From positions 99,937 through 163,936 of the forward strand of contig NZ_JQEY01000004.1 of assembly GCF_000743715.1 (NCBI RefSeq): a stretch of DNA of 64,000 bases, in the 5' to 3' direction. A program made the translations under genes and the position numbers. Positions 2,784-31,962 of the stretch are shown here, in pieces. The stretch comes from Palleronia rufa (lineage in GTDB: Bacteria; Pseudomonadota; Alphaproteobacteria; Rhodobacterales; Rhodobacteraceae). Within the stretch, counting starts at the first letter, position 1. Each line of letters opens with the position of its first letter. Below the pieces are notes generated by a model that worked only from the letters and a program-made list of their open reading frames with translations, was not told where the DNA came from and did not search any database.

Positions 2784-2874
2784 CGCCCCCGCCCGCTTCC
2801 CCTAATGCGCGTCAACTCAACCATCCCACGTCCACGGGCCCCGCCGCCCGGGCACGCATTCAAAGGACAATGCC

Positions 2875-3162
2875 ATGTCGCGCGTCTGCGAACTGACCGG
2901 CAAGGGCCCGATCACGGGCAACAATGTCAGCCACGCCAACAACCGGACCCGGCGCCGCTTCCTGCCGAACCTGAACGACGTCACCCTGATGTCGGAAACC
3001 CTGGGCCGCACCGTCAAGCTGCGCATCTCCGCGGCGGCCCTGCGCACGGTCGATCACCGCGGCGGTCTCGACGGGTTCATGGCCAAGGCCAGGGAGTCCG
3101 AGCTTTCGGCCCGCGCCCTGAAGATCAAGAAAGAGATAGAGAAGTCGCTGACCGCCGCCTGA
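2875..3162 (+). CDS. rpmB: 50S ribosomal protein L28
   Basis: Structural protein of the large ribosomal subunit, 95 residues. It starts [12 protein letters not shown], contains the [15 protein letters not shown] core, and has the alphaproteobacterial C-terminal extension. A Shine-Dalgarno-like AAAGGAC precedes the ATG. The gene is probably transcribed alone; the next gene-like sequence on this strand is a broken transposase. Confidence 0.97.
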
Positions 3163-3406
3163 CCGGCGCGGTTCGCAGCGCCCCGGGCGGCCCGCGGCGG
3201 CCGTGAACCCGACCGGCCCCGCATCTCCCGCTCCGGCCGCGCCGGACCGGCGGCCGGCCCCCGGCAGTGGCTCCCACAGCAGGTCCGCCCCGCCGCCCGA
3301 ATGGCTGCCGCTCCGCCCTGACCGGCGATACCCGGACCGCTCCGCCCGGCGGGCGCCGTGACCGCCTCGCCGGGACGGTAACTTCACCGCCTCGCCTGGG
3401 TCCCAC
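3163..3406. other. GC-rich spacer, no gene recognised
   Basis: This is the spacer between rpmB and the IS5 remnant. Open frames here on both strands are short and show no known protein. Short GC-rich dyads are present just after the rpmB stop, but none is followed by a clear T-run. Confidence 0.5.
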
Positions 3407-4271
3407 ACTCATAAATCGCTAGCGGCGTTTGGGGATGCTGATTCACTCTGAGAAAAGAGGAGGGCAGCATGGTGCTACGTCGCTACGAACTGACCGAATT
3501 CGAATGGTCGATCATCGAACCGCTTTTGCCGAACAAGCCGCGTGGTGTGCCGCGCGTCGATGACCGTGGGGTGCTGAACGGCATTTACTGGCGTCTCAAG
3601 ACCGGTTTGCCCTAGGCCGACATTCCCGAACGCTATGGCCCCTATACGACCTGCGACAACCGGTTTGTTCGCTGGGCGAGGCTGGGTGTTTGGGACCGAA
3701 TATTCCAAGCGGTGTCAGAGGTTTGCGAAGGTTCCGCGCAATCCGTGGACAGTTCGTCCATCCGCGTCCACCAGCACGGGGCGAACGCAAAACGGGGGGC
3801 GAAGCGGCCACCGGCCCCGCCGGTCTGGCTGACCTTCGAGCCGTCTGCATGGGGCGCTCGCGAGGCGGTCTGACGACCAGGATACACGCCGTCACCGATG
3901 CGCGCGGGCTGCCGATCACGCTGAAACTGACCGCCGGACAGGCCCATGACGGCCGCTCCGCCGACGACATGTTGGGCACGGCCGGGCCAGACCCTGCTGG
4001 CGGATCCGGCCTGCGACAGCAACCGCTGCGCGATCAACTCGCAGCGGTTGGCGCGAAAGCGGTCCTCAGGCCGATCTCACGCCGTACCGCCCCGCCACCG
4101 TTGGACAAGGAGGCTTACCGCCGCCGCAACCGGATCGAGCGGTTCTTCTCAAAACTCAAGCATTACAGGGCGATAGCGACCCGATACGAGAAACACGACG
4201 CCAACTTCCTCGCATTCGTCAAACTCGCCGCAACACGCATCTGGTTGCGCGTCTATGAGTCGGTGACCTAG
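3407..4271 (+). pseudogene. Decayed IS5-family transposase/element
   Basis: The reading frame starts at the ATG at 3469 (good RBS, AGGAGGGCAGC) and matches an IS5-family DDE transposase: N-terminal EFEWSIIEPLLPNKPRGVPR, then GIYWRLKTGLP. There is an in-frame TAG at 3613-3615 where the family has Trp. The frame then moves near 3830 (CMGRSRGGLTTRIHAVTDA) and again around 3990-4060 (TLLADPACDS in a third frame). It ends with the family signature RNRIERFFSKLKHYRAIATR and stop 4269-4271. Possible imperfect ends share ACTCATA (3407 inward; 4260 inward on the other strand). It cannot encode an active transposase. Confidence 0.85.
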
Positions 4272-8073: not shown

Positions 8074-8604
8074 TTTGAGTGACAGGATAACGGAAACTCC
8101 CTCCCGAGAAGAACGAGGCGGTCATGATCCTGAAATCCGGTCAGGGTCATGCGGCGGCGGCAACGCAATCAACTCGGCAAGGTCGTGGACTACAGACGTA
8201 GGCGGGGGGGTTGATGACCTTTCGACCCGTTCGTGTCCAGAGAATTCCGGCGCATTGTCCCTCGAATGTGGATCGGCCGAATGGGTTTTCGTTATTGCAT
8301 TGGCCGGTTTGGTTATCTGGGTTGAATTGCGGCGCCGGACTGCAATTCCAGGGGGCGTACCGTCGTCCCGTATCCGGACGCGGCCCGGCGCGGCACCGGT
8401 CCCCGGCGACTGACGGACACGTGGATGCGCACCGGAACCGGGGGCGCCGGCGAACCCGGGTGTCCCACGCGCTCCGGTCCCTCCCGGGCGCTCCGTCCGA
8501 CAGCCATCGCCCGCGACGCTCAGGCCCCCCGGGCCCGGTGCGGCCCCGACCGCGTCACCCCACCCCCTCGACAACACCCCCGAACGCCCGCATATCCTGC
8601 GGCC
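8074..8604. other. Spacer between ATP-grasp-like gene and lepA
   Basis: 531 bases between divergent genes. Both promoters should lie here. No recognised protein, RNA or strong hairpin with T-run was seen. Open frames crossing it are shadows. A locally AT-richer stretch at about 8255-8330 could hold a promoter, but no convincing -35/-10 pair was identified. Confidence 0.4.
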
Positions 8605-10407
8605 ATGACCGAGCTCGCACACATCCGCAACTTCTCCATCGTCGCCCATATCGACCACGGGAAATCCACCCTGGCCGATCGGCTGATCCAGCTCACCGGC
8701 ACCGTGGCCGAGCGCGACATGAAAGAGCAGCTCCTCGACGCCATGGACATCGAGCGTGAGCGCGGCATCACCATCAAGGCCAACACCGTCCGCATCGAGT
8801 ATCCCGCCCGCGACGGCCACACCTATGTGCTCAACCTCATCGACACGCCGGGCCACGTGGACTTCGCCTATGAGGTGTCGCGCTCCATGCGCGCGGTGGA
8901 GGGCTCGCTGCTGGTCGTGGACGCCTCCCAGGGGGTCGAGGCGCAGACGCTCGCCAATGTCTACACCGCCATCGAGGCCGACCATGAGATCGTGCCCGTC
9001 CTCAACAAGGTGGACCTTCCCGCCGCCGAGCCCGACCGCGTGGCCGAGCAGATCGAGGACGTCATCGGGATCGAGGCGCACGACGCCGTCCATATCTCCG
9101 CCAAGACCGGCCTCGGCATCCCGGAGGTGCTGGAGGCCATCGTCACCCGCCTGCCGCCGCCCCATTCCGGCGACCGTGCCGCGCCCCTCAAGGCGATGCT
9201 GGTGGACAGCAAGTACGACGCCTACCTCGGGGTCATCGTCATCGTGCGGATCATCGACGGGGTGCTGAAAAAGGGCGACCGCATCCGCATGATGAAGACC
9301 GGCGGCACCTACGACGTGGACGACGTGGGCGTGTACCGCCCCGCCATGACCGCCGCCGCGGAGCTGGGGCCGGGTGAGATCGGCTATCTCAACGCCTCGA
9401 TCAAGCAGGTCCGCGACACCCGCGTGGGCGACACGATCACCCACGAAAAACGCCCCTGCGACGCGCCGCTGCCCGGCTTCAAGCCGTCGATCCCGGTGGT
9501 GTTCTGCGGCCTCTTCCCGGTCGACGCCAACGACTTCAACGACATGCGCGACGCAATGGAAAAGCTGGCGCTCAACGACGCCTCCTTCACCTTCGAAATG
9601 GAGACCTCCGCCGCGCTGGGCTTCGGCTTCCGCTGCGGGTTCCTGGGCCTGCTCCACCTTGAGGTCATCCGCGACCGGCTGGAGCGCGAGTACGACATCG
9701 ACCTGATCACCACCGCGCCGTCGGTGATCTACCACATCCACCAGCGCGACGGCACGATGACCGAGCTGCACAACCCGGCCGATTTCCCCGACCCCGGCAC
9801 CATCGACCGGGTGGAAGAGCCGCGCATCAAGGCCACCATCCTGGTCCCCGACGACTACCTCGGCGACGTGCTCAAGCTCTGCCAGGACCGCCGCGGCATC
9901 CAGATGGACCTGACCTATGCCGGCTCCCGCGCCATGGCGGTCTACGACCTGCCGCTGAACGAGGTCGTGTTCGACTTCTACGACCGGCTCAAATCGGTCA
10001 CCAAGGGCTATGCCAGCTTCGACTACCAGATGATCGGCTACCGAGAGGACACGCTGGTGAAGATGTCGATCCTGGTCAACGACGAACCCGTGGACGCCCT
10101 GTCGATGATGGTCCACCGCGACCGGGCCGAGATGCGCGGCCGCGCCATGTGCGAGAAGCTGAAAGAGCTGATTCCCCGCCACATGTTCAAGATCCCGATC
10201 CAGGCCGCCATCGGCGGCCGCGTCATCGCCCGAGAGACCCTGTCGGCCATGCGCAAGGACGTGACGGCGAAATGCTACGGCGGCGACGCCACGCGCAAGA
10301 AGAAGCTGCTGGAGAAACAGAAAGCCGGCAAGAAGAAGATGCGCCAGTTCGGCAAGGTCGAGATCCCGCAGGAGGCGTTCATCAACGCGCTAAAAATGGA
10401 TGGGTGA
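8605..10407 (+). CDS. lepA: Elongation factor 4 (LepA)
   Basis: Ribosome-associated translational GTPase (back-translocase/EF4), 600 residues, the normal length. Motifs: [10 protein letters not shown]-loop, RERGITIK switch, [12 protein letters not shown], followed by EF-G-like domains and the LepA-specific C-terminus ending [18 protein letters not shown]. The ATG at 8605 gives the canonical N-terminus [20 protein letters not shown]; the upstream in-frame extension is discarded. Confidence 0.97.
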
Positions 10408-10538: not shown

Positions 10539-11315
10539 TTGGAAGAAAGTAAGTTTATGTCTGCGGAGGAGGAGAAGCTTCGCGAAACATATCTAAAATA
10601 TCTAGGGATAGAGGGCAAACATAATAAAAATAAGCGACGAACCGCGCTTGATCGAGCGTGGAGCACAAGAAATTTTGAAATTGAAATGTATTGGAAGCGT
10701 TCGATCTATTTCTGGGGCTTTCAAATTGTATTCCTTGGATCTTTCCTGCTGCTGATTGGCGCGTACATAGATTCCGAGGCGAGTAACAGAATTCTAGTCT
10801 TTGTCATCCTCGTCAGTATCGCTTTACTTGCGAGCTTTTTTGCCTTCGTTTGGACCCTTGTAGAGCGCGGCTCAAAAGACTGGCAGGACAATTGGGAGAG
10901 GCACATCGACTTGTTGGGGGACGAGTTTACTGGCGCACTTTACAAAACTTATCTGTTTTCAAAAGTGAACAAAAAAGACGGGTACGCCCCCTATAGCGTG
11001 TCAAAACTTAATTCTCTTACAACCAAAGCCGTTATGTGTTTCTGGGTTTTCGTTTCGATGTTGACAGTTGCAGACGGTATCCGTGTGTTGCTCGACCAAG
11101 AGATTGCCGCCCTTTCAATGCAAATTATGTTGGTCGCAGGATTTTTTGCGCTCTTTATGATCACGCTAACTATCATGCACATGATCGGAACTAATTCTCT
11201 CAAGTCGTCCGATCTCGGGAAAAGGGTAAGTAAGCATACTTCAGATGATCATTGTGGTCGTACCCGGTATTTCGTTCAGAGAAGGTGGCTTAACGATCCG
11301 TGCAAGAGGGGCTAA
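10539..11315 (+). CDS. RipA-like octameric membrane protein family
   Basis: 258 residues, four or more hydrophobic segments: about 52-70, 78-106, 165-185, 193-215. The block ALDRAWSTRNFEIEMYWKRS, plus a W-rich NWERH-DLLGDE region ending in YKTYLF, is what I recall of the family named RipA family octameric membrane protein (related to Francisella RipA). The assignment is from memory of motifs, not a search. A TTG start at 10539 has GGGAGAG upstream; ATG at 10557 is an alternative. The gene is clearly AT-richer than its surroundings, uses many A/T-ending codons, and has a flanking AT-rich spacer, all signs of recent transfer. Confidence 0.6.
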   Translation: MEESKFMSAEEEKLRETYLKYLGIEGKHNKNKRRTALDRAWSTRNFEIEMYWKRSIYFWGFQIVFLGSFLLLIGAYIDSEASNRILVFVILVSIALLASFFAFVWTLVERGSKDWQDNWERHIDLLGDEFTGALYKTYLFSKVNKKDGYAPYSVSKLNSLTTKAVMCFWVFVSMLTVADGIRVLLDQEIAALSMQIMLVAGFFALFMITLTIMHMIGTNSLKSSDLGKRVSKHTSDDHCGRTRYFVQRRWLNDPCKRG

Positions 11316-24565: not shown

Positions 24566-25445
24566 CTATTCCGCGCGCTCCCCCCGCATCAGGACGACCG
24601 CCCCGCTTGCCATGATGATCGCCGCCCCGGCCCATGTGGCCGCGTCCGGCACGTCGCGCCAGATCGCCCATCCCAGCGCCGTCGCCCAGATGAGCGCCGT
24701 ATAGTCGAACGGTGCGACGACCGCCGCCGGCGCGATCCGAAACGCCTGCGTCATCAGCGTGATGCCCAGCGTTCCGAACAGCGCGATCCCGGCAAAGAGC
24801 CACGCATCGGCCGCCTGGAGCGGCGTCCAGACCGCGAGACTCGCCAATCCCGCGACCAGCGCCCCGGCGCCGACCAGATAGAGCATCATCGTCCACCACG
24901 CTCTCGCGCGGATCGACCCACCTGGCAGAGATCATCAGCGCCGCGTAGACGAACGCGGTGCCCAGCGGGAACAGGGCCGCGGGCTGGAAGGCCGCACCGC
25001 CCGGCCGCACCACGACCAGCACGCCGGCGAACCCCAGCCCCACCGCGCCCCAGCGCCAGCGCCCCACGCGTTCCTTCAACACCAGCGCCGACAGGGCGGT
25101 GATGAAGATCGGCGCGGCGAACAGGATCGCCGTCGCCTCTGCCAGACCCAAGCGTCCCAGCCCGGTGAAGAACAGCGCCGCCGCACAAAGCCACAGCGCA
25201 CCCCGCACCAGATGCGCCAGCGGCCGGGCGGTGCGCAGCGCCGCGGGCCCGCCGATGCGCCAGGCGATCAGCATCGCCACCGGCAGCGCGATGAGGTTGC
25301 GCAGGAACAGGATCTGTACCGCCGGATAGTGGGCGGTCAGGACCTTGCCGATGGCGTCGTTGGCGCTGAGGAACGCGACACCGGCCGACATCAGCCCGAT
25401 GCCCGCCAGCGCGTCTCCGGCCGCCGGGCCCCGGCCTTGCGTCAC
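24566..25445 (-). pseudogene. DMT (EamA) family transporter, frameshifted
   Basis: A ten-helix drug/metabolite exporter interrupted by one extra base. From the GTG at 25445 the frame runs through EamA repeat 1 (FLSANDAIGKVLTAHYPAVQ ... FLRNLIALPVAM) to RWVDPRESV. Reading on in the next frame from about 24894 gives WTMMLYLVGAGALVAG and the second repeat to the stop at 24566. The likely lesion is an extra G:C in GTGGTGG near 24893-24899. GTG start overlaps the UdgX stop by 4 bases (GTGA), so it belongs to that operon. Either an inactivated gene or an assembly error. Confidence 0.8.
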
Positions 25446-26881
25446 GCCGCGCCGTCCGCATCCGACAGCCACGCGACGGCGCGCTCCAGGTCGGCGCGGA
25501 AGTCCCGCTCCGCTGCCGCCTTGGCCGCGGCGTTCGGCACCCGCAGCAGATAGGACGGGTGCAGCGTCAGCAGGACAGGCGTGCCGTCTCCCGCCGCCTC
25601 GAACGTGCCGCGCCGCTTCATGATCCCGTCCCCCCGCCCGGTCAGCGACAGCGCCGCCGTGGCTCCCATCCCCAGGATCAGCCGGGGCCGCACCAGGCGG
25701 CGTTCGGCCTCCAGCCACCAGCGGCAGGCCTGAACCTCGCTTGCGTCCGGGCGCTGGTGGATCCGCCGCTTGCCCTTGGCCGCGAACTTGAAATGCTTCA
25801 CCGCATTGGTCACGAAAGCCGCATCCCGGTCCAGGCCGACCTCCTGTGCCATCCGGTCGAAAAGCTGCCCCGCCGGCCCGACGAAAGGCCGGCCGGCCAG
25901 ATCCTCCCGGTCGCCGGGCTGTTCGCCCACGATCATCAGCGGCGCCTCGCGCGGCCCTTCTCCCATCACCACCTGCGTGGCGTCGCGGTGGAGCGGGCAG
26001 CGTTCGCAGCCCGCCGCCTCGCGGGCCAGCGCCTCCAGATCGCTTGCCGCCGGTTCGTCCTCAACCATCCTGAGCCTCTCCGTGATCTTGCGCGCCCGCG
26101 CCGGGGCCAGGGTGGGCGCCGCCGCCTGCATCGCCCGCGCGCGCGCTTCCGCCGTGGCGATCATCTCCGGGATCGCCGCCGCCTCCGGCAGGTTTTTCCA
26201 GTATTTCTTCGGCATCTCCGCCTGCATCGCCTTCACCTTCAGCCGCGCCGGGTTGAAGATGTTGCGGTAATAGGTCGTCCAGAGCGCATCGGTCGCATCT
26301 TCGGACGGCGGCGGCGCCGACTGACCGGGCAGAAGCGCGATCCGCCCGCCGGTGAATTCCACCGTCCGGTCCGGCGTCACGATGATCCAGTCCATGTCCC
26401 CGAAGCGCCGCGCGAAGAACCCGGCCATGGGTTCGGCGATATGATGCGCAGGCTCGAACCACGCGGCGAAGCGCCTGCGGCCCCCGGCGCCGCCGATCTC
26501 GCGGAACCGCACGAAGGCCTTCATCTTGTGCATGTCGCGCCGCACCGCCTTCTCCATGTCCCTGAGACGCGTTAGATCCGCGTCGCCCCGGTCGCCGACC
26601 AGGGCAGGGGTCGCGCGCAGCCGCCAGAGCAGCGCGTAGAGCCGCGCGAACCGTTCCGGATCCGCGTGCCAGCAGACGGTTTCGGCCAGAGCGACGAAGC
26701 TGCGGGGCACGGTGGCCGAACCGCCGGCGAACGCGGCGGGCTCCATGGCGAAGAGATCGCCCGGACCGCCGTCATAGGCCCAGAGCACATCCTCGGGGGG
26801 AACGTTCGCGCCCAGCAGCCCGCGCGCCGCATCCCGCCAGGCCGACGCGGTCCCCAAAGCGGGAACGGTGACCCCGGGCAT
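25442..26881 (-). CDS. Fusion of TIGR03915-type domain and UdgX uracil-DNA glycosylase domain
   Basis: 479 residues. The N-terminal ~260 match the putative DNA-repair domain found beside radical SAM proteins (DMHKMKAFVRFRE, YWKNLPEA). The C-terminal ~200 are a family-4-like uracil-DNA glycosylase: C292-x2-C295 and C386 as FeS ligands, GEQPGDREDLAGRPFVGPAG, and the loop KRRIH (371-375), whose His forms a covalent bond to uracil-containing DNA in characterised UdgX. ATG 26881 overlaps the radical SAM stop (TGATG). It acts with that protein in DNA repair. Confidence 0.92.
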   Translation of the reverse strand: MPGVTVPALGTASAWRDAARGLLGANVPPEDVLWAYDGGPGDLFAMEPAAFAGGSATVPRSFVALAETVCWHADPERFARLYALLWRLRATPALVGDRGDADLTRLRDMEKAVRRDMHKMKAFVRFREIGGAGGRRRFAAWFEPAHHIAEPMAGFFARRFGDMDWIIVTPDRTVEFTGGRIALLPGQSAPPPSEDATDALWTTYYRNIFNPARLKVKAMQAEMPKKYWKNLPEAAAIPEMIATAEARARAMQAAAPTLAPARARKITERLRMVEDEPAASDLEALAREAAGCERCPLHRDATQVVMGEGPREAPLMIVGEQPGDREDLAGRPFVGPAGQLFDRMAQEVGLDRDAAFVTNAVKHFKFAAKGKRRIHQRPDASEVQACRWWLEAERRLVRPRLILGMGATAALSLTGRGDGIMKRRGTFEAAGDGTPVLLTLHPSYLLRVPNAAAKAAAERDFRADLERAVAWLSDADGAA

Positions 26882-28116
26882 CAGAAAAGCGCCAGCTGCT
26901 CTGGCGGCGGCGCGAAGCGGGCCCGGAGACCGGCCGAGTCGGTCAGCGCCCCCGGCGTCCAGCCGCCGCAGGTGACGAAGGCCCGCGCTTTCCTCATCCC
27001 CGCCCCCATACGGGTCAGATCCTCATAGGTCAGGCTGCGATGGCGCCGCGTGGTCAGGATCCGGTTCACGGTCTTGATGCCGAAGCCCGGCACGCGCAGC
27101 AGCAACTCCCGCGCGGCCCGGTTCACGTCCAGAGGAAAGGCGTGGCGGTTCTGCAGCGCCCAGGCCAGCTTGGGGTCGATCTGCAGATCCAGGTTCCCGT
27201 CCGGCAGGGCGCCGGTGATCTCCGCCAGATCGAACCCGTAGAAGCGCAGCAGCCAGTCGGCCTGATAGAGCCTGTGCTCGCGCTCCAGGGGCGGGCGGAT
27301 CAGCGGCAGCGCGGCCGTGGCGTCCGGGATCGGCGAGAAGGCCGAGTAATAGACCCGCTTGAGCTTGTAGCTGGAATAGAGCCGCGTGGACTGTCCCAGC
27401 ACGGTCGCGTCGCTGGCGCCGTCCGCGCCCACGATCATCTGCGTGGACTGCCCCGCGGGCGCGAAGCGGGGCGGGCGCTTGCCGGTGTGGGACCGCTCGG
27501 TGCCCGCCTCCTTGCGCAGCCGGACGTCGGCCATGACCTTGCGGATCGTGGCGGGCGATTTCTCCGGCGCATAGGTCCTGACGCTGGCGTCGGTCGGAAG
27601 CTCCACGTTGATCGACAGCCGGTCCGCGAAAAGCCCGGCCCGTTCGATCAGATCCGGATCGGCGTCCGGGATCGTCTTGAGGTGGATATATCCCCGGAAC
27701 CGCTCGTCCTGGCGCAGGCGGCGGGCGATCTCGACCATCTCGCCCATGGTCTCGTCGGGGCTGCGCACGATGCCGGACGACAGGAACAGCCCCTCTATGT
27801 AATTGCGCCGGTAGAACTCCACGGTCAGGGACACGACCTCGTCGACGGTGAACCGCGCCCGCTTCACGTTCGAGCTGACGCGGTTGATGCAATAGGCGCA
27901 GTCGTAGATGCAGAAATTCGTCAGCAGGATCTTCAGCAACGAAATGCACCGCCCGTCCGGCGCATAGGCGTGACAGATGCCCGATCCTTCGGTGGATCCC
28001 AGTCCCGATCCGTCGCGGGAGCTTCGCTTCGCTGTGCCCGACGACGCGCATGAGGCGTCGTATTTCGCCGCGTCCGACAGGATCGCCAGTTTTTCGTCCA
28101 GGGTGAATCGCGCCAT
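26881..28116 (-). CDS. Putative DNA modification/repair radical SAM protein
   Basis: 411 residues. The radical SAM cluster is C69-x3-C73-x2-C76 (NFCIYDCAYC), with a C-terminal helix-hairpin-helix-like segment (LLRVPGFGIKTVNRIL) suited to DNA binding. The family (TIGR03916-type) is almost always next to UdgX; its substrate is unknown. ATG 28116; operon radical SAM - UdgX - DMT transporter. Repeat copy 3 lies just upstream. Confidence 0.9.
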   Translation of the reverse strand: MARFTLDEKLAILSDAAKYDASCASSGTAKRSSRDGSGLGSTEGSGICHAYAPDGRCISLLKILLTNFCIYDCAYCINRVSSNVKRARFTVDEVVSLTVEFYRRNYIEGLFLSSGIVRSPDETMGEMVEIARRLRQDERFRGYIHLKTIPDADPDLIERAGLFADRLSINVELPTDASVRTYAPEKSPATIRKVMADVRLRKEAGTERSHTGKRPPRFAPAGQSTQMIVGADGASDATVLGQSTRLYSSYKLKRVYYSAFSPIPDATAALPLIRPPLEREHRLYQADWLLRFYGFDLAEITGALPDGNLDLQIDPKLAWALQNRHAFPLDVNRAARELLLRVPGFGIKTVNRILTTRRHRSLTYEDLTRMGAGMRKARAFVTCGGWTPGALTDSAGLRARFAPPPEQLALF

Positions 28117-28532
28117 CCGTTCATCATACGTTCCCGCGCACGCCACGGAAAGGCCCTGCGACACCCTGCCATTCATCTTTCCCCAAATATCCCCGCCGGA
28201 GGCAGAACTTCGGTCCGGAAGCCTGCCCGGCCGATGGGCCACGGTGATCGCGCCTCGTGTCGTCGAGCGGCGCGAACCCGCGGCGGCCGAAGAATTCCCT
28301 GGCTCTGGATCATGTCGGCGGTGCCCCGCGCGGCGCGCATGGCATCGAGACGGCCCAGGCCCGCGGCCGGCGCCGGAACCTGGCGGCCGGTCGGCAGGGC
28401 CGCTACCGCAACCGGCCTCAGACCCGGCGCCGCCCCATGTTCCCGTTCCGACGAGGCCGATGCCGGATCCGCGCATGTCTTTCCTCCGCCGATCCGGTCG
28501 CTAGCTAGAACGGTTGGCAAAGGGGAAACGGC
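28117..28532. other. Spacer between divergent genes
   Basis: 416 bases; holds repeat copy 3 (28172-28210). Nothing else recognised; open frames here are shadows with Arg/Pro/Gly bias. Confidence 0.4.
28172..28210 (-). repeat. Intergenic repeat element, copy 3 (hairpin eroded)
   Basis: Plus strand TTCATCTTTCCCCAAATATC then CCCGCCGGAGGCAGAACTTC. The first 20 bases are identical to copy 1. The hairpin arm equivalent to GGGGGCAG is degenerate (GGAGGCAGAACTTC). Confidence 0.55.
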
Positions 28533-29714
28533 TTGGTCGGATACGATATCGTCATCGTCGGCGCGGGGATCATGGGCGCCTCCGTGGCGTGGCACCTGAC
28601 CGAAGCCGGGTCCGATGCCCGCATCGCGGTGATCGAACGCGACCCCCGTTTCACCCGCGCCGGTTCGACGGCCACCAACTCCTGCCTGCGCCAGCAGTTC
28701 ACCACCCCGACCAATATCCTGGCCTCGCGCTATACCGCAGAGATCATCCGCGACTTCCCTGCCCATGCGCGCGATGCCCGGGCCCCCGGGATCGCCCTCG
28801 ATCCGTTCGGATACCTCTATCTGGCCGCCGATCCGCCCGCCGCCGACGCGCTGCGCCGCGCCCATGCGCTCCAGACCTCCCTCGGGGCCGGAACGGTGCT
28901 GCTGGACCGGGCCGCCCTTGCCGCGCGATTCCCGTTCATCCGCGGCGGCGACATCGTGCTGGCAAGCTGGGGCAGCCGGGACGAGGGCTATTTCGACGGC
29001 CACGCCATGTGGTCCCACTGGCGCCGGGCGGCGCGCGACCGCGGCGTCGTTTTTCTGGAGGGAGAGGTCGCCGCCGTCTCCCGGGCCGCCGAGCTGGGCC
29101 GCGTTACCGGCGTGTCGCTGGCCGACGGAACGCGCCTGGCCTGCGGCTGGCTGGTCAACGCCGCGGGCGGGCGCGCGGCGGACCTGGCCGCCATGGCCGG
29201 GATCTCCATTCCCGTGGAGCGGCGCAAGCGCTTCACCTACGTGTTCGAGGCAGAGCGTCCGCTGCCCGCGCCACTGCCCCTCACGGTCGATCCCTGCGGC
29301 GTTCACATGCGCAGCGACGGCCGCCTCTACATGGCCGGTGCCGCACCGCAGCCGGACCTGCCCGTGTCGGCGGACGATTTCGACGACCGCCCCGCGCTCT
29401 GGGAAGAGCGCGTGTGGCCCGCGCTCGCCGCCCGCGTCCCCGCGTTCGAGGCGATCCGCCTGCGCCGCTCCTGGGTCGGGCACTACGATTTCAACACTTT
29501 CGATCGGAACGCGCTTCTGGGTCCGGCGCCGGACTGTCCCAACCTGATCCTGTGCTGCGGATTCTCCGGGCACGGGTTGCAGCACGCCCCGGCCGTGGGG
29601 CGCGGCGCGGCGGAGCTGATCCTGACCGGCGCCTTCCGCAGCCTCGATCTCGGCGCCTATGCGCCGACGCGGCTGGCCGCACCGCCCGCATCCGCCGAAG
29701 GGGCGGTGATCTGA
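28533..29714 (+). CDS. FAD-dependent oxidoreductase (D-amino-acid oxidase/DAO fold)
   Basis: 393 residues; N-terminal FAD motif VIVGAGIMGASVAWHL (8-23), STATNSCLRQQFTTP, and the C-terminal CCGFSGHGLQHAPAVGRGAAEL typical of DAO/sarcosine-oxidase-like enzymes that oxidise amines or amino acids. The start TTG at 28533 follows AGGGGAAACGG; no ATG is better placed. Substrate not predictable; neighbours give no clue. Confidence 0.83.
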   Translation: MVGYDIVIVGAGIMGASVAWHLTEAGSDARIAVIERDPRFTRAGSTATNSCLRQQFTTPTNILASRYTAEIIRDFPAHARDARAPGIALDPFGYLYLAADPPAADALRRAHALQTSLGAGTVLLDRAALAARFPFIRGGDIVLASWGSRDEGYFDGHAMWSHWRRAARDRGVVFLEGEVAAVSRAAELGRVTGVSLADGTRLACGWLVNAAGGRAADLAAMAGISIPVERRKRFTYVFEAERPLPAPLPLTVDPCGVHMRSDGRLYMAGAAPQPDLPVSADDFDDRPALWEERVWPALAARVPAFEAIRLRRSWVGHYDFNTFDRNALLGPAPDCPNLILCCGFSGHGLQHAPAVGRGAAELILTGAFRSLDLGAYAPTRLAAPPASAEGAVI

Positions 29715-29793: not shown

Positions 29794-31962
29794 GTGAGGC
29801 AAGGGCGAAGTGCAAGGGCAAGTGCCGCGGCGGCGACCGCGCTCGGGTTGGCTGCCGCGTCGGCGGGTGGTGCCTGGGCGCAGCAGTCCTCGGTCGACCT
29901 GCCGCACCTGAACTTCTACGGCATGACCGGCGCCATCGACACGCCGACCGCGCTCAGCCAGCCGGACGGAGAGCTGGCGTTCACCGCCTCGACCCTGGGG
30001 CTTAACATCAACCGCTACACCCTCAGCTTCCAGGTGCTGCCGCGGGTCCAGGCGTCGTTCCGCTATTCGGGGTTCCTGGACTTCGACCCGGAGGGCGGCA
30101 GCGATACGTTCGACTTCTATGACCGCAGCTTCGATGTCACGGTCGAGGTGCTCAAGGAACGCCGCTACCTGCCGTCGCTCAAGATCGGCCTGCAGGACTT
30201 CATCGGCACCGGGATCCAGACCTCGGAATACATCGTCGCCAGCAAGCGGTTCCTCGACGACCGGCTGACCGTCTCTGGCGGCCTGGGCTGGGGGCGGCTG
30301 GGCGGCAGCGACGATCTGGGCACGCCCTTCGGCGACCGGCCCGCGCGCGATTTCGGACGCGGCGGGAACCTGCAGCTGGAGCAGGCCTTCCGCGGACCGG
30401 TCTCGCCCTTCGGGTCGGTCATGTACCGCGCCACCGATGCGCTGACGCTGGTGGCGGAATACTCTCCCGATCCCTACGCGCTGGAAACCGGGTCCCAGGG
30501 CACCAGCCGGAACGACCTCTTCACCCGCGAGTCGTCCCTGAACTTCGGCGCCTCCTACCGGATCAACGACGCGGTGGAACTGGGGCTCTACTCTCTCTAC
30601 GGCTCAGAGGTCGGGTTCCGCCTGTCGTTCAACGGCAATCCGTATCGCCCGCCGGTGGTAGGCTCTCTCGACGCCGCGCCGGGCCGGGTTGCGCCGCGCG
30701 CCCCGCGTGAGACCGCGCCCCAGCAATGGTCCACCCGCTGGCGTGCCATCCCGGACGTGGAAAGCGGCCTGATCAAGCGGCTGAACGGTGAGCTGGCCGA
30801 ACAGGGGCTGATCGTCACCGGACTGCGTGTCGTCTCCGCCACCCAGGTGGAGGTGCAGTACCGCAACGGCTACAGCCGCACCCAGGCGACAGGCGTGGGC
30901 CGCGTGGCGCGGGCGATGACCCGGATCATGCCCAGCGCGGTCGAAACCTTCCGCATTGTCCCTGAGACCGCCAACATGGGCACCGCCGCGGTGGTCATCC
31001 GCCGCTCGGACCTGGAGCGGCTGGTCGCCGCGCCGGACCGGGAGGCGGCGCTGCTGGCGCGCACCGGTTTTGTCGACGACGCGCCCAGAGAGGCGGGCAC
31101 CGTCCTGTCCCAAGACGTGTTCCCGCGCCTCAGCTACGGCATCGGCCCCTATGTGCGACGGGTATTCTTCGACCCCAACCAGCCGATCCGGTTCGAGGCC
31201 GGTCTGCGCTTTCAGGGCGAATACGAGCCCGTCGCCGGCCTCATCCTGTCCACCAGCCTGTCGACCCGCCTGTTCGGCAAGGCCGCGACCGACAACGACC
31301 AGGCCAGCGCGCTGCCGCCCGTCAGGACCGAGTTCAACCGCTATGCCGAAGGCGCCGACTTCGCCATGGATCGGCTCCAGGCGGCCTATTACGTCAAGCC
31401 GACCCGGACGACCTATGCGCGCGTCACCGCCGGCTACCTGGAGCGCATGTTCGGCGGCGTCTCGGCCGAGCTTCTGTGGAAGCCCGCCGCCAGCAGGCTG
31501 GGGCTGGGCGCAGAGGTCAACTATGCCCGCAAGCGCGATTACGGCGTCGACTTCGGGTTTCTCGACTACGATGTGGTGACCGGCCATGTCTCGGCCTATT
31601 ACGAACTGCCGAACGGGTTCGACGCGCAGATCGACGTGGGCCGGTATCTGGCCGGCGACGTGGGCGCGACCTTCACCCTGTCGCGCACCTTCCGCAACGG
31701 CTGGGAGATCGGCGCCTACGCCACCGTCACCGACGTGGATGCGGAAACCTTCGGAGAGGGGTCGTTCGACAAGGGCATCAAGGTGTCGATCCCGGTGGAA
31801 TGGTTCACCGGCAAGCCCTCCACGACCGCGATCGGAACCACGCTCAGCTCGATCACCCGGGACGGCGGCGCGCGGCTGAACGTGAACGGGCGGCTCTACG
31901 ACACGGTGGTGGACAGCCAGAAGACGGGCGTGACGGATCAATGGGGGTCGGTATGGCGGTGA
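29794..31962 (+). CDS. yjbH: YjbH family outer-membrane protein
   Basis: 722 residues with signal peptide (LGLAAASAGGAWAQ) and long beta-strand repeats; matches YjbH-domain proteins, beta-barrel-like partners in exopolysaccharide synthesis/export. Start GTG 29794 after AGGGGAGCGTCAG. The downstream yjbF start lies inside its last codons, so the two are coupled. E. coli has yjbE-F-G-H; here only H then F, in reverse order, are found. Confidence 0.85.
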   Translation: MRQGRSARASAAAATALGLAAASAGGAWAQQSSVDLPHLNFYGMTGAIDTPTALSQPDGELAFTASTLGLNINRYTLSFQVLPRVQASFRYSGFLDFDPEGGSDTFDFYDRSFDVTVEVLKERRYLPSLKIGLQDFIGTGIQTSEYIVASKRFLDDRLTVSGGLGWGRLGGSDDLGTPFGDRPARDFGRGGNLQLEQAFRGPVSPFGSVMYRATDALTLVAEYSPDPYALETGSQGTSRNDLFTRESSLNFGASYRINDAVELGLYSLYGSEVGFRLSFNGNPYRPPVVGSLDAAPGRVAPRAPRETAPQQWSTRWRAIPDVESGLIKRLNGELAEQGLIVTGLRVVSATQVEVQYRNGYSRTQATGVGRVARAMTRIMPSAVETFRIVPETANMGTAAVVIRRSDLERLVAAPDREAALLARTGFVDDAPREAGTVLSQDVFPRLSYGIGPYVRRVFFDPNQPIRFEAGLRFQGEYEPVAGLILSTSLSTRLFGKAATDNDQASALPPVRTEFNRYAEGADFAMDRLQAAYYVKPTRTTYARVTAGYLERMFGGVSAELLWKPAASRLGLGAEVNYARKRDYGVDFGFLDYDVVTGHVSAYYELPNGFDAQIDVGRYLAGDVGATFTLSRTFRNGWEIGAYATVTDVDAETFGEGSFDKGIKVSIPVEWFTGKPSTTAIGTTLSSITRDGGARLNVNGRLYDTVVDSQKTGVTDQWGSVWR

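Follow-up and report, generated by a model that had tools for sequence, protein, structure and literature searches.

A candidate SOS-regulated, clamp-associated lesion-processing gene pair, radical SAM and DUF4130-UdgX, in Palleronia rufa

What would a radical SAM enzyme do beside a UdgX fusion protein, and which of the neighbouring genes belong with it? The question is raised by a locus of Palleronia rufa in a stretch of 64,000 nucleotides, hereafter the window, to which the coordinates refer unless another contig is named. The radical SAM gene (26881-28116, minus strand; start ATG at 28116, stop at 26881) encodes 411 amino acids and is followed by a gene (25442-26881, minus strand; start ATG at 26881) for a 479-residue protein combining DUF4130 (TIGR03915) and UdgX (TIGR03914). 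The two reading frames have a single base in common (TGATG), an overlap seen again in most relatives. Pfam assigns the domains Radical_SAM, DUF4130 and UDG across the two proteins. The coordinates, strands and residues of the initial annotation, including the one-base overlap, the cysteines C69/C73/C76 and His375 within KRRIH (371-375), were all found as given on re-checking, and its prediction of a radical SAM enzyme and an intact UdgX coupled in one DNA repair unit is supported. The SOS box, the clamp-binding tail, the additional cysteines and the helix-hairpin-helix described below are not mentioned in it. In the surroundings, a DAO oxidase gene (28533-29714) is divergent from the repair unit and adjoined by a gene for a YjbH-family exopolysaccharide protein (29794-31962). 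Farther off, G+C falls to 0.61 between 8001 and 12000, compared with about 0.69 around it, in a stretch holding an ORF for a LepA-like elongation factor (8425-10407, assigned by eye) and then an ORF at 10539-11315.

The UdgX domain (residues 236-467 of the fusion; 25481-26176, minus strand) was recognized by NCBIfam (TIGR03914, 326.1 bits against a cut-off of 189.95) and by its match to the solved Mycobacterium smegmatis enzyme, MsmUdgX (E 1.5e-50). Motif A, GEQPGD (residues 319-324; 25910-25927), and motif B, HPSYLLR (25541-25561), both on the minus strand, are intact, and in the R-loop KRRIH (residues 371-375; 25757-25771, minus strand) His375 is aligned to the nucleophile His109 of MsmUdgX. 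It had been proposed that UdgX captures uracil covalently through this histidine; the part given to the histidine agrees with published UdgX chemistry, while the target does not, since UdgX excises uracil first and its histidine then forms a bond with C1' of the sugar at the abasic site (PMC10359453). Likewise, the fusion to DUF4130 is present as annotated but is not peculiar to this genome, being common in relatives.

The other half of the fusion is the DUF4130 domain (residues 10-234; 26180-26854, minus strand), which exceeds the cut-offs of both NCBIfam (TIGR03915, 197.3 against 112.25 bits) and Pfam (PF13566, 134.1 against 27 bits). AlphaFold2 modelled it as a confident alpha/beta domain (pLDDT 85.9), for which profile and fold searches of the PDB returned no solved relative (best fold E 0.05, probability 0.14); weak hits to PAP phosphatase, pyrophosphatase and RecJ were taken as noise. 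The residues H118, R125, W141, E143, N210 and R213 are invariant or nearly so and look catalytic from their conservation.

How tightly the three domains belong together was judged in 249 Pseudomonadota genomes, presence being a score above cut-off. The radical SAM protein was found in 39 genomes, DUF4130 in 41 and UdgX in 38. All 39 radical SAM genomes contain DUF4130, so that about one sixth of the surveyed genomes (39/249) carry this pair, while UdgX is present in 29 of them and missing from 10. Conversely, 9 of the 38 UdgX genomes are devoid of the radical SAM gene, and 7 of these 9 have no intact DUF4130. The claim that the radical SAM partner always accompanies UdgX is thus contradicted in both directions. 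Fisher tests that ignore the relatedness of the genomes gave p 1e-43 for radical SAM with DUF4130 and p 1e-21 for radical SAM with UdgX. In 80 further named alphaproteobacterial loci, of which 76 extend far enough downstream to judge, DUF4130 follows in 76/76 and UdgX in 71/76. The constant presence of DUF4130 (39/39 and 76/76) against the patchy presence of UdgX makes radical SAM and DUF4130 the core of the unit and UdgX an optional, often fused module, which is not central to the chemistry of the pair since it is frequently missing. The survey therefore shifts the focus from the optional UdgX to the obligate DUF4130.

The same counts bear on the idea that radical SAM and DUF4130 resolve the covalent UdgX-DNA adduct, a self-inflicted DNA-protein crosslink. 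The fusion to UdgX and the translational coupling, here and in most alphaproteobacteria, would suit such a role; nevertheless, with 10/39 radical SAM genomes lacking UdgX and 9/38 UdgX genomes lacking radical SAM, the genes occur independently, and the routes named for resolving UdgX adducts are RecA-dependent pathways and proteases (PMC10359453). This role is accordingly disfavoured, and we regard it as very unlikely.

Several arrangements of the genes were noted in individual genomes. One of the seven UdgX genomes without radical SAM or intact DUF4130 (G129) has a DUF4130 remnant followed by the UdgX gene (L149, G129:C1:5486827-5487696), seemingly a decayed fusion that has left UdgX alone. 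In some alphaproteobacterial relatives (family f13), such as L136 (oriented +1324 to +1800), an apparent hemerythrin-like gene lies between radical SAM and DUF4130, and L143 and L144 hold further inserted genes (beta-helix-like and c-type cytochrome-like), about 3 kb in total; all of these genes were identified by eye. The radical SAM gene was plasmid-borne in 158 records, including Phaeobacter (58), Paracoccus and Azospirillum. Homologues with 47-54% identity were found in records labelled as phage (Acinetobacter phage MD-2021a and human faecal phage contigs, L274), some of which may be bacterial or phage-plasmid contigs.

On the downstream side, the initial annotation had the operon ending in a membrane exporter, and a unit of this composition might, for example, remove a diffusible product. 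The gene in question encodes an EamA-type transporter (24566-25445, minus strand; GTG start at 25445) whose start overlaps the fusion by four bases (GTGA), as a coupled gene might. Its frame, however, is broken near 24890, the two halves lying in different frames, so that it is either a pseudogene or an assembly error. The neighbourhood survey which had been proposed for the exporter revealed no homologue beside the unit in 51 relative neighbourhoods, and among 76 relative loci only one distant EamA gene (37% identity), on the opposite strand and about 3 kb off; the closest homologue in a congener (55% identity) resides on another contig. The frameshift and the neighbourhoods of relatives refute the exporter as a conserved component. 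It is a chance neighbour outside the repair unit, and a role for it within the unit is scarcely credible.

On the upstream side, a LexA/SOS box GAAC-N7-GAAC (equivalently GTTC-N7-GTTC) at 28119-28133 ends three bases ahead of the radical SAM ATG. Both lexA and recA of the host are preceded by a box of the same type, which is about 36 bp away in the case of lexA (C1:239014-239028 against 239064) and some 94 bp away in that of recA (C1:648894 against 648800). GAACN7GAAC was observed upstream of the radical SAM gene in all 30 alphaproteobacterial loci of the survey and in 78 of the 80 further named loci, which elsewhere contain it 30 times in 839,663 bp. In other classes of the phylum, a box of the CTG-N10-CAG type takes its place in 9 of 11 loci, mostly as CTGTATAT...ACAG, indicating that control is retained despite a different operator. 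A recognizable LexA box is absent from 2/80 alphaproteobacterial loci and from 2/11 loci of other classes, and in stand-alone UdgX loci no box was found in the 250 bp that precede the matched start, these starts being approximate. That the control persists while the operator type changes argues strongly for membership of the unit in the LexA/SOS regulon. SOS control of the COG1573-COG4277 pair has been reported for Bacteroidetes, Verrucomicrobia and Alphaproteobacteria being cited as earlier cases (PMC8565304); in Acinetobacter, one radical SAM member is reported to be upregulated on desiccation (PMC13130816).

The radical SAM protein itself belongs to TIGR03916 (567.7 bits against a cut-off of 343.5, NCBIfam). 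Its CX3CX2C cluster motif, C69/C73/C76 (27889-27912, minus strand), is invariant in 126/126 homologues. Three extra cysteines, C23, C48 and C57, together with H49 (27946-28050, minus strand), are a candidate second metal site, the three cysteines being present in 125/126 homologues. The single exception, from Gemmatirosa, lacks the equivalents of C23, C48 and C57 jointly, and this loss as a set suggests a single second site. In lipoyl synthase (LipA), three extra cysteines are likewise located N-terminal to CX3CX2C, and by this pattern C23, C48 and C57 may possibly form a comparable auxiliary cluster site; the structure model has pLDDT below 50 at residues 21-47 and is unreliable around them. 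The Gemmatirosa homologue (L273, on a plasmid, 2857-4257) is divergent, scores below the TIGR03916 cut-off, retains a ComEA-like helix-hairpin-helix and the ending QLSLW, and reads as a sister subfamily.

Toward the C-terminus, a helix-hairpin-helix DNA-binding motif was detected at about residues 329-371 (27004-27132, minus strand) as a weak HHH_3 match. All 28 of 28 members match HHH_3, each weakly (best E 7.6e-6), with single-protein scores below the Pfam cut-off, and the profile search also matched RuvA and ComEA helix-hairpin-helix motifs weakly. By Foldseek, the closest folds were HydE, LipA, BioB and ThiH, among others, at TM values of about 0.4 and 9-19% identity.

These features allow a comparison with spore photoproduct lyase, in which a cysteine downstream of the cluster motif is the hydrogen-atom donor. 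If the protein were a lyase of this kind, it would directly reverse a UV photoproduct in DNA, with DUF4130 and UdgX as helpers. The label of 'SplB-like radical SAM photolyase' attached to proteins in the DUF4130 context (PMC3765255), the SOS control and the DNA-binding helix-hairpin-helix are in its favour. Nevertheless, no conserved cysteine follows C76, no cysteine column in the homologue alignment exceeding 30% occupancy; TIGR03916 is the only family matched at E<=0.001, no match to such a lyase family being found; spore photoproduct lyase is absent from the top 50 fold matches; and PMC8565304 lists SplB (COG1533) apart from the COG4277 pair among SOS genes. The downstream cysteine, the family match and the fold matches together rule out membership in SplB, and direct reversal by an SplB-like lyase is quite unlikely.

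The radical SAM protein ends in PEQLALF, a tail of low model confidence (pLDDT below 50 at residues 404-411) and apparently disordered, in which QLALF (26884-26898, minus strand) is a candidate beta-clamp-binding motif. The highest-affinity motifs of this kind are QLxLF and QLxLxF, and several known ones are in C-terminal tails (PMC11139829). We defined a strict motif as Q followed by L or M, a mostly polar or small residue, L or M, and a hydrophobic residue, and scored a looser form as well. The strict form was found in 110/121 homologue tails and the loose form in 118/121, QLSLF being the commonest (37). In all 110 cases the strict motif is C-terminal, ending at or within three residues of the terminus. 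A scan of 48,212 residues found it in no other place, and shuffling the tails produced it in 0.2% of them. It recurs as QLSLF in Bacteroidota and Azospirillum, as QLSLW in Gemmatimonadota and as the six-residue form QLSLGF in Acinetobacter, behind linkers that differ between these homologues. DUF4130 proteins do not carry it (0/43). We infer that the tail docks on DnaN, bearing in mind that a five-residue motif predicts, and does not prove, binding. A clamp-binding motif has not, to judge from a search that fell short of most subscription papers, been reported together with a radical SAM protein before, and the words 'radical' and 'glycosylase' do not occur in the clamp-motif review PMC11139829.

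Alternatively, the unit could be a mutagenesis or base-modification system that alters bases at SOS-stalled forks and thereby changes the outcome of bypass. DUF4130 'might modify thymines' according to PMC3765255, and both the SOS control and the clamp tail, which resembles those of translesion polymerases (PMC11139829), would fit. Against this, no modified base is known and DUF4130 has no structure or activity to its name; sequence alone does not separate such a system from repair. We consider it unlikely, and an SOS-induced, clamp-tethered lesion-processing module is probably the best reading of the locus.

From the observed genes, domains, conserved motifs, co-occurrence and LexA boxes, we infer clamp binding, a DNA substrate, a lesion and an order of steps for this module as follows. 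On DNA damage, LexA would leave its operator at 28119-28133, allowing expression of both genes of the operon, as the conserved boxes suggest. The QLALF tail would dock the radical SAM protein on the beta sliding clamp while the helix-hairpin-helix holds it on DNA, in keeping with the two motifs. Its 5'-deoxyadenosyl radical might then act on a base or nucleotide that carries damage or a modification and change it, and DUF4130, the obligate partner, would perform or enable a second step. Where present, the fused UdgX could excise uracil and shield the abasic site covalently through His375, which may thereby be kept uncut during repair or bypass at the fork. A bolder version, in which an SOS-induced radical SAM repair enzyme travels with the clamp, docked by QLxLF, carries a second metal cluster on the three extra cysteines, and acts with a DUF4130 whose fold is absent from the PDB on a class of lesion outside the assigned pathways, is tentative, and we lean slightly against it. 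The clamp tail and the second set of cysteines make the question of a radical enzyme at replication forks testable.

Parts of this picture are familiar. In 2013, DUF4130 was described as a 'predicted mutagenesis-related enzyme' and linked to UDGs and to radical SAM proteins resembling SplB (PMC3765255). NCBIfam and two papers (PMC3765255; PMC8565304) between them already record the pair, its fusion and its control by the SOS response. The literature searched yielded no biochemistry, genetics or assigned activity for the radical SAM protein or DUF4130, and no paper treating UdgX and radical SAM together. The NCBIfam trio TIGR03914/TIGR03915/TIGR03916 (the COG4277 and COG1573 pair) has the same three domains, adjacency and fusion as found here; nothing defining differs, and the adjacent frameshifted exporter is the only local feature. 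The initial annotation is worded much like the descriptions of these three families. With the UdgX of M. smegmatis (PDB 6AJO, 6IO9 and others), the Palleronia domain has GEQPGD, the nucleophilic histidine of KRRIH and the HPS of motif B in common, whereas it differs in its fusion to DUF4130, its SOS box and its radical SAM partner. The SOS operon of COG1573 and COG4277 in Bacteroidetes, Verrucomicrobia and Alphaproteobacteria is the same pair under LexA control, and PMC8565304 treats its regulation, the clamp motif and the second cysteine set being unmentioned in the accessible part of that paper. SplB is likewise a radical SAM enzyme with a presumed DNA substrate and SOS control in some bacteria (PMC3323433), yet the Palleronia protein is without the downstream catalytic cysteine and differs in family and closest folds. 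The class of lipoyl synthase, HydE and biotin synthase supplies the closest solved folds, yet at only 9-19% identity and TM of about 0.4; to our knowledge, neither a helix-hairpin-helix nor a clamp tail is a feature of its enzymes. Added to these known systems here are the clamp motif, the three extra cysteines, the helix-hairpin-helix and the DUF4130 fold without a PDB match, as well as the conservation of the LexA box across relatives and the operator swap in other classes.
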